A stretch of DNA of 17,378 bases from Candidatus Methylomirabilis sp. (GTDB taxonomy: Bacteria > DYJV01). The notes below the pieces were generated by a model. That model was not told where the DNA came from and made no database searches. It worked only from the letters and a program-made list of their open reading frames with translations. The stretch is taken from the NCBI GenBank assembly GCA_020722945.1, contig DYJV01000049.1, positions 1-17,378 of the forward strand, given 5' to 3'. A program made the translations under genes and the position numbers. Of the stretch, positions 2,773-4,283 are shown one piece after another (positions within the stretch are counted from its first letter, which is position 1; each line of letters starts with the position of its first letter).

Positions 2773-4092
2773 ATGTTTTTTTATCTCAAAAATTTTGGCT
2801 GTAAAGTTAATCTTGTTGAATCTGAGTTTATAATAAATACACTTCTGAGTAACTCTTTTTCCATTGGAGAAACAGAGTTTGAAAGTGATATTGTTATTAT
2901 AAATAGCTGTTCTGTTACCAAAGAGGCAGAGAGGCAAGTATTTCAATATATACGAAGAGTAAAGAGAGATTATAAAGATAAGGTAATTTTGCTAACTGGA
3001 TGTATGGTTGATAGTAGATTGGAGGATATAAGAAATAGTGAATTGATAGATATTGCTGTTTCAAATTTTTACAAAGAGGATATCCCAAAAATATTAATCA
3101 ATTTAGATATATCCTCAATCAGAGAACAACTTATTTATTATAGGGATATATCTGAAAAAGAGAAGTTTGCCCAAGTTGATTATTTTGAAAAGGGTATCTT
3201 TCATACAAGGAAGTTTATCAAAATCCAAGATGGCTGTGATAATTTTTGCTCTTACTGCATTATCCCCTTATTGCGAGGTAAGCCGAAAAGCTTAGAGATG
3301 AGACACATATTAAAGCAATTTGATTATATCCCCGATAAATTTAGAGAGGTTGTGATTACAGGTATCAATATAGGTAGTTATGGTAAAGATATTGGAAAGA
3401 GTGGACTCCTTCTACGATTGTTGCTTGAAATTGAAGAGTTACTACTAAAAAATGGTGTTAGAGATTTTAGAATCAGGCTTTCATCTCTCAAACCTGATGA
3501 AATAACAGAAGAGTTTATAAATTTTTTAAAAGTAAGCTGTTATATTGCTCCTCATTTTCACCTATCAATCCAAAATTTTAATGATAAAGTTCTTGCTTCA
3601 ATGAATAGACATTATAATTTTGAGAGAATAAAATTTATAACTGAGAAGATAAGAGAGTTAATCCCTTATGCTGGATTGGGTGCTGATATCATAACTGCTT
3701 TTCCAAGTGAAGGTTCTGAGGAGTTTGAAGATAATTGCAGTAAAATGGAGAGTAGTAGTATAAATTTTTTTCATATATTCCCATTTAGCCCAAGAGAGGG
3801 AACATCTGCATATCACTTTAAAGATATTCTTGATAAAAGGAGTAAGAGAGAGAGAGTTAGAATTCTCAAAAAGATTGCTGATGCCAAGAGGGAGAAATTT
3901 GCAAGGGAGAATCTTGGAAGAGAGCTTAAGGTTCTTGTTGAAAAAGATGGTGATCTATGTGAAGGTTATAGTGAAAATTATATCAGAGTTTTTTTTCAGA
4001 AAGAGCAACTTTTATATTTGAAAAATAAAATAGTTAATGTTAAAGGGATAGAAATAAAGAATAAACATTATATTTCAGGGAGGTTAAAATGA
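2773..4092 (+). CDS. mtaB: tRNA t6A37 methylthiotransferase MtaB
   Basis: A radical-SAM methylthiotransferase that adds a methylthio group to t6A at position 37 of ANN-decoding tRNAs. The order is an N-terminal MTTase domain with cluster cysteines C10 (FGCKVN), C46 (NSCSVT) and C77 (TGCMV), a radical-SAM domain with C155-x3-C159-x2-C162 (DGCDNFCSYCIIPLLRG), and a C-terminal TRAM-like region after about residue 370. A TTG at 2758 in the same frame is possible, but AAAGG at 2761-2765 sits seven bases before the ATG at 2773, and MtaB proteins start right at the FYxLGCKVN strand, so ATG 2773 (439 aa) is preferred. The stop overlaps the start of the following DUF1858 gene (ATGA). RimO and MiaB are less likely: the NSCSVT motif and short N terminus match MtaB. 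Confidence 0.87.
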   Translation: MFFYLKNFGCKVNLVESEFIINTLLSNSFSIGETEFESDIVIINSCSVTKEAERQVFQYIRRVKRDYKDKVILLTGCMVDSRLEDIRNSELIDIAVSNFYKEDIPKILINLDISSIREQLIYYRDISEKEKFAQVDYFEKGIFHTRKFIKIQDGCDNFCSYCIIPLLRGKPKSLEMRHILKQFDYIPDKFREVVITGINIGSYGKDIGKSGLLLRLLLEIEELLLKNGVRDFRIRLSSLKPDEITEEFINFLKVSCYIAPHFHLSIQNFNDKVLASMNRHYNFERIKFITEKIRELIPYAGLGADIITAFPSEGSEEFEDNCSKMESSSINFFHIFPFSPREGTSAYHFKDILDKRSKRERVRILKKIADAKREKFARENLGRELKVLVEKDGDLCEGYSENYIRVFFQKEQLLYLKNKIVNVKGIEIKNKHYISGRLK

Positions 4093-4283
4093 TTACCAAA
4101 GAGATGTCTATTACAGAGATTATCCGTAAGTATCCTCAATGCATTGAGGTATTTCAGGGTGCTGGTCTTGGTTGACTCGGTTGTATTGCTTCTTCATTTG
4201 AGACACTTGAGCTGGGAGCTCAAGCACACGGTTTGGATGTTGATGAGCTTGTAAAGGCTTTAAATGCAAAGTTAGGAAATTAA
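4089..4283 (+). CDS. DUF1858 redox-disulfide protein with in-frame TGA: probable selenoprotein (UxxC)
   Basis: A 64-residue protein read through an in-frame TGA at 4173-4175 (codon 29). Upstream it encodes [18 protein letters not shown] and then [10 protein letters not shown]. Downstream it resumes as [18 protein letters not shown] followed by [12 protein letters not shown]. Together these give one continuous DUF1858 domain, as in the hybrid-cluster-protein-associated redox disulfide family. In the family this site is the first Cys of a CxxC motif; here it is TGA-Leu-Gly-Cys32, so insertion of selenocysteine would create a UxxC redox centre. Support for expression is a strong GGGAGG ribosome site five bases before ATG 4089, an ATGA overlap with mtaB, and intact coding on both sides. 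A perfect hairpin at 4206-4224 could be the SECIS element. The job is inferred to be thiol/selenol redox or sulfur/selenium handling; the partner is unknown. A pseudogene or sequencing error (TGC or TGT to TGA) is the main alternative. Confidence 0.8.
4206..4224 (+). promoter_or_regulatory. Candidate bacterial SECIS hairpin
   Basis: CTTGAGCT-GGG-AGCTCAAG is a perfect 8-bp stem with a G-rich loop, inside the DUF1858 reading frame. The loop begins 38 bases after the UGA, or 37 if the closing U-A pair opens to give loop UGGGA. Bacterial SECIS elements are in-frame hairpins shortly after the UGA with a small loop carrying G in its first bases, and SelB binds them. A weaker hairpin directly after the TGA (4176-4202: CUC...GAG with G-U pairs and an 11-base loop) is an alternative. 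Confidence 0.55.

Follow-up and report, generated by a model that had tools for sequence, protein, structure and literature searches.

A 17,378-nt stretch of the genome of Candidatus Methylomirabilis sp. (contig DYJV01000049.1; hereafter the window) very probably contains, at positions 4089-4283 (+), a gene for a selenoprotein of the DUF1858 family, in which SelB and a hairpin within the message would decode an in-frame UGA as selenocysteine (Sec), giving a putative redox protein with a U29/C32 pair. Standard ORF calling misses this gene because the TGA splits its coding sequence.

A DUF1858 gene interrupted by TGA

Once the TGA at 4173-4175 is read through, the gene encodes a complete DUF1858/TIGR03980 domain of 64 residues, which begins with ATG at 4089, contains the TGA as codon 29 and ends with a TAA at 4283. 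The read-through product aligns with the whole of TIGR03980 (91.2 bits against a cut-off of 44.95, E 2.9e-26) and also matches PF08984 (E 3.2e-20; 72.4 bits, cut-off 32.2), and it is the only DUF1858 match obtained by profile search of the window genome. The family-conserved residues G31, C32, E38, H47, G48, L58 and N59 are all present, with U replacing the first cysteine of the CxxC motif, which thus reads U29-L-G-C32. The features of this region, with reference to a sister genome from the same phylum (G001, described below), are the following.

2758-4092 (+): mtaB-like radical SAM gene (UPF0004 and Radical_SAM); gene order the same in G001
4078-4083 (+): ribosome-binding site GGGAGG, read in the sequence; AGGAGG at the equivalent place in G001
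4089-4283 (+): DUF1858/TIGR03980 predicted selenoprotein gene, 64 residues, Sec at position 29, UxxC form, based on profile matches and the G001 relative
4173-4175 (+): in-frame TGA, read as U29 at the first position of the CxxC motif, based on the sequence and the alignment column
4182-4184 (+): TGT codon of C32, the second residue of the motif and a nearly invariant family cysteine
4285-5409 (+): tgt, queuine tRNA-ribosyltransferase, the downstream neighbour; absent from the equivalent place in G001

An earlier note on this DNA had proposed that the gap between mtaB and tgt encodes one complete 64-residue DUF1858 domain upon TGA readthrough, with intact family sequence on both flanks of the codon, and the full-length profile matches bear this out, with TIGR03980 aligned end to end across the TGA. 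Its placement of the TGA at codon 29, the first CxxC position, is exact, and the two translation signals it described are both present, namely the GGGAGG site at 4078-4083 and, at 4089-4092, the ATGA shared by the DUF1858 start codon and the TGA stop of mtaB.

Several other genes in the window deserve mention in their own right. A DUF4212 small subunit and a sodium:solute symporter form a pair at 417-2400 (-). A 175-residue, histidine-rich protein with many HxH repeats, likely metal-binding and without a Pfam match, is encoded at 9176-9703 (+), adjoining a glycosyltransferase family 9 gene. Moreover, two FliD-like proteins are encoded on opposite strands, at 11862-13784 (+) and 14702-17092 (-), one of which gave a match to the FliD C-terminal domain alone.

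Selenocysteine machinery and a relative with the same codon

Searching the window genome (2.51 Mb, 184 contigs, 98% complete, 5.8% contamination) for selA, selB, selC and selD, as the earlier note had proposed, recovered all four: selA on contig C37 (595.8 bits), selB on contig C46 (350.9 bits, above the cut-off), selD on contig C91 (334.1 bits) and a tRNA-SeC with a TCA anticodon, identified by ARAGORN, on contig C23. The selD gene has an in-frame TGA of its own, located in the motif ...RAAGUAGKLAPG..., which represents the expected Sec site of SelD, and the window genome therefore contains a second, independent Sec gene.

Our comparison within the phylum comprised two genomes, that of the window and G001, which belongs to a different family of the same order; both are fragmented, metagenome-like assemblies (G001: 92% complete, 500 contigs). 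G001 has a DUF1858 gene with 59-60% identity to the window gene, a TGA at the same codon and the motif U-V-G-C, situated directly 3' of mtaB with the same ATGA overlap; tgt is not located downstream. Between the two genes, the 28 codons 5' of the TGA show a dN of 0.31 and a dS of 1.10, and the 31 codons 3' of it a dN of 0.20 and a dS of 1.67, with 22 of the 31 residues identical. The dN/dS ratio is well below 1 on either side, indicating purifying selection on both halves of the gene. G001 also possesses its own tRNA-SeC and a selD gene with an in-frame TGA. Its selB gene is split over two contig pieces (L091, L089) and selA was not found in this 92% complete assembly of 500 contigs, both of which are plausibly explained by assembly fragmentation.

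These data bear on several alternatives to selenocysteine. If the TGA were a real stop, the locus would be a decaying DUF1858 pseudogene or encode a 28-residue peptide. UGA does terminate other window genes, mtaB among them, but the codon falls exactly on a cysteine that is invariant in the family alignment, no further stop or frameshift is present in the gene, and G001 has a TGA at the same codon at 60% identity, followed by a 3' half under no less constraint than the 5' half. Decay on the 3' side in relatives was the pattern that the earlier note had named as speaking against its proposal, but in G001 the TGA is retained and the 3' side is intact. The shared TGA and the constrained 3' half therefore make decay untenable, and we regard termination at this codon as highly improbable. 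A shade less probable still is a reassignment of UGA in this lineage, for instance to Trp or Gly, or its decoding as Cys rather than Sec. Within the genes considered here, nothing pointed to such a change. TGA is the stop codon of three window genes, and in both genomes that of mtaB overlaps the next start; in addition, the window genome encodes canonical tRNA-SeC, SelA, SelB and SelD, and the in-frame TGA codons of the DUF1858 gene and selD sit where Sec or Cys is expected. Finally, the window genome assembly, with its 184 contigs and 5.8% contamination, leaves room for a sequencing or assembly error in a TGC or TGT codon, but the same TGA recurs in an independent genome from another family, with many synonymous differences nearby. 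Such an error is therefore very unlikely, and we assign it only a minimal probability.

Exchange of cysteine and TGA in the family and candidate SECIS hairpins

A search for the exchange of Cys and TGA codons among homologues, also suggested in the earlier note, located it at exactly column 29 of the alignment. TIGR03980 matches were obtained in 111 of 386 diverse genomes, and among the matches listed for these genomes only the window gene and its G001 counterpart contain an internal stop. Chance is excluded as an explanation because G001 has the TGA at the same codon and the other listed matches are stop-free. Among 122 distinct domains, the first motif column is occupied by Cys in 119 cases, TGA in two (the window gene and that of G001) and Asn in one; the second column contains Cys in 117 domains and TGA in one. 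The latter domain, L036b, stems from a Clostridiales MAG (L036; JARDZI010000041.1) with tandem DUF1858 copies, whose genome contains a tRNA-Sec and a selB fragment.

JARDZI010000041.1, 3001-3186: DUF1858 Cys copy, motif C-I-G-C
JARDZI010000041.1, from 3322: DUF1858 TGA copy (L036b), motif C-F-C-U

The matches listed for 398 genomes of the same phylum as L036 and eight genomes of another phylum did not include any TGA. Plasmid records yielded eight DUF1858 homologues, and the three of them that were read (two unannotated, one annotated) have an ordinary CxxC motif. Scanning viral contigs for the pattern of the UxxC peptide gave a single match (L165), which lies antisense to a phage gene and was dismissed as a chance hit.

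Downstream of the TGA, the window gene contains a candidate SECIS element, a feature that the earlier note had not considered.

4206-4224 (+): candidate SECIS hairpin, CUUGAGC-UGGGA-GCUCAAG, -8.3 kcal/mol, with its apical loop (4213-4217) 37 nt downstream of the TGA

The published model of bacterial SECIS elements (bSECIS) comprises a loop of 3-9 nt with an early G, a stem of 4-16 bp, a spacing of 16-37 nt and a stability of -7.5 kcal/mol or lower (PMC13188914). The window hairpin agrees with it, showing an N1-G-G-N-N2 loop with a U-A closing pair and a 7-bp stem, while its spacing of 37 nt lies at the upper limit. When the window gene was recoded synonymously, an equally good hairpin arose in only 2.2% of cases, and among dinucleotide shuffles in only 1.3%. 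The stability of the whole 71-nt stretch is not higher than that of shuffled sequences (z 0.85), so that the case for a SECIS element is built on the hairpin itself rather than on the folding of the region as a whole. Rfam gave no match over the window.

A near-identical hairpin, CUAGAGC-AGGGU-GCUCUAG, is formed in L036b by the same codons (L-E-[LQ]-G-A-[QL]), 28 nt after its UGA, and only 0.12% of synonymous recodings are as good. When 88 homologues were ranked by their best model hairpin, the window gene and L036b came second and third, and among the 26 low-G+C homologues they took first and second place when the folding of the homologous codons was compared. In the Cys tandem copy of L036, the hairpin codons differ only synonymously (e.g. 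CAA for CAG, GCC for GCU), and these changes weaken its best model hairpin to -2.2. The L-E-x-G-A peptide itself favours such hairpins, and each p value alone is therefore modest (about 0.02 for the window gene). Taken together, these sequence comparisons make a convincing case for a SECIS hairpin in L036b and a good one for the window gene.

The G001 gene has no hairpin of the window type at the homologous codons and no bSECIS conforming to the model; its best candidates reach -5 to -6.6 kcal/mol and include a hairpin (-5.1) whose GUU loop lies 20 nt downstream of the TGA. Within each genome, the same loop letters occur in the selD hairpin and in the candidate hairpin of the DUF1858 gene, GGG in that of the window (G000; selD, L086) and GUU in G001 (selD, L085), an observation that is suggestive only.

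The weak candidate in G001 would suit a low-level, SECIS-free readthrough of UGA by a near-cognate tRNA, placing neither Cys nor Sec at the site. However, one would not expect Trp or Arg to be conserved in place of an invariant active-site cysteine, and the window hairpin and its twin in L036b fit SelB-dependent decoding; we rate this alternative as no more probable than a sequencing error. For selenocysteine, the proposed sequence of events is that SelB, loaded with Sec-tRNA(Sec), would bind the hairpin at 4206-4224 within the coding mRNA, and that the resulting complex would make the ribosome decode the UGA at 4173-4175 as Sec. The U29-L-G-C32 pair would then replace the CxxC of the family in a small cytosolic thiol/selenol redox protein that may alternate between the selenenylsulfide and the selenol-thiol state. 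The earlier note had read the TGA as selenocysteine from its position and context; the machinery, the G001 gene, the exchange at column 29 and the hairpin now lend support to this reading, and it is from sequence that we infer both the cellular insertion of Sec and the redox cycling of the pair.

Position of the predicted selenocysteine and possible redox function

The earlier note did not count DUF1858 among the standard selenoprotein families, which needs correction, since two reviews include DUF1858 (PF08984), with the motif CxxU, among the predicted selenoprotein families of bacteria, an example being WP_012065717.1 (PMC9312934, PMC13188914). The published protein belongs to the same family as the window protein and has Sec in the same CxxC motif, but at the second position (CxxU), whereas U comes first in the window protein (UxxC). 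The novelty thus lies in the position of Sec, found here in a phylum represented by two genomes, and not in the family; the UxxC form is absent from the entries of both reviews (PMC9312934, PMC13188914). Switches of the Sec position within one motif have precedents in other families, such as the Trx-like 1 family, which is usually UxxC but also occurs as CxxU (PMC2398784).

L036b is 59% identical to the window protein and resembles it in its in-frame motif TGA and in a GGG-containing hairpin loop on the same codons, but differs in having Sec second and its hairpin 28 instead of 37 nt from the TGA. In a weakly resolved tree based on 64 columns, it groups with the Cys paralogue that lies in tandem with it (98/71) and not with the window gene, which pairs with that of G001 (93/74). 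These pairings favour, without proving them, two origins of Sec in DUF1858. As a tentative extension, to which we give slightly less than even credence, Sec may have arisen at least twice in this 60-residue family, once at each cysteine and each time with a hairpin at the same codons. Its presence at each cysteine in separate origins would then mean that either cysteine can take the role of the catalytic selenol, and coding for L-E-x-G-A may have predisposed the family to acquire a SECIS element.

An AlphaFold2 model of the window protein, folded with C in place of U, has a pLDDT of 89.5. In Foldseek searches, the predicted fold matches the DUF1858 NMR structures 2k5e (TM 0.87) and 2k53 (TM 0.78), Cys-type TIGR03980 members that share the CxxC arrangement but have two cysteines without Sec, and also the di-iron protein YtfE (5fnn; TM 0.76 over the query, with a weak E-value), whose N-terminal domain has a similar fold. 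TIGR03980 is by name a hybrid-cluster-protein-associated family, and no hybrid cluster protein gene was recognised among the genes of the window. In the YtfE relative ScdA of S. aureus, redox-active cysteines, including the N-terminal Cys30 and Cys31, tune oligomerisation (PMC12412097); these two are adjacent instead of forming a CxxC motif, and ScdA is fused to a di-iron domain, unlike the window protein. Furthermore, the NnrR denitrification regulon of Bradyrhizobium includes a DUF1858 gene (PMC6710368). Based on the family name, the YtfE N-terminal fold, the ScdA cysteines and the membership in the NnrR regulon, it is a reasonable guess that the predicted selenoprotein acts under nitrosative or iron-sulfur stress.

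Collectively, the occurrence of Sec at both positions of the motif points to a genuine redox role of DUF1858 in which either cysteine is able to attack, a property that makes the family testable. Moreover, the hairpins at the same codons in two lineages represent a small natural experiment on the origin of a SECIS element inside a coding sequence.
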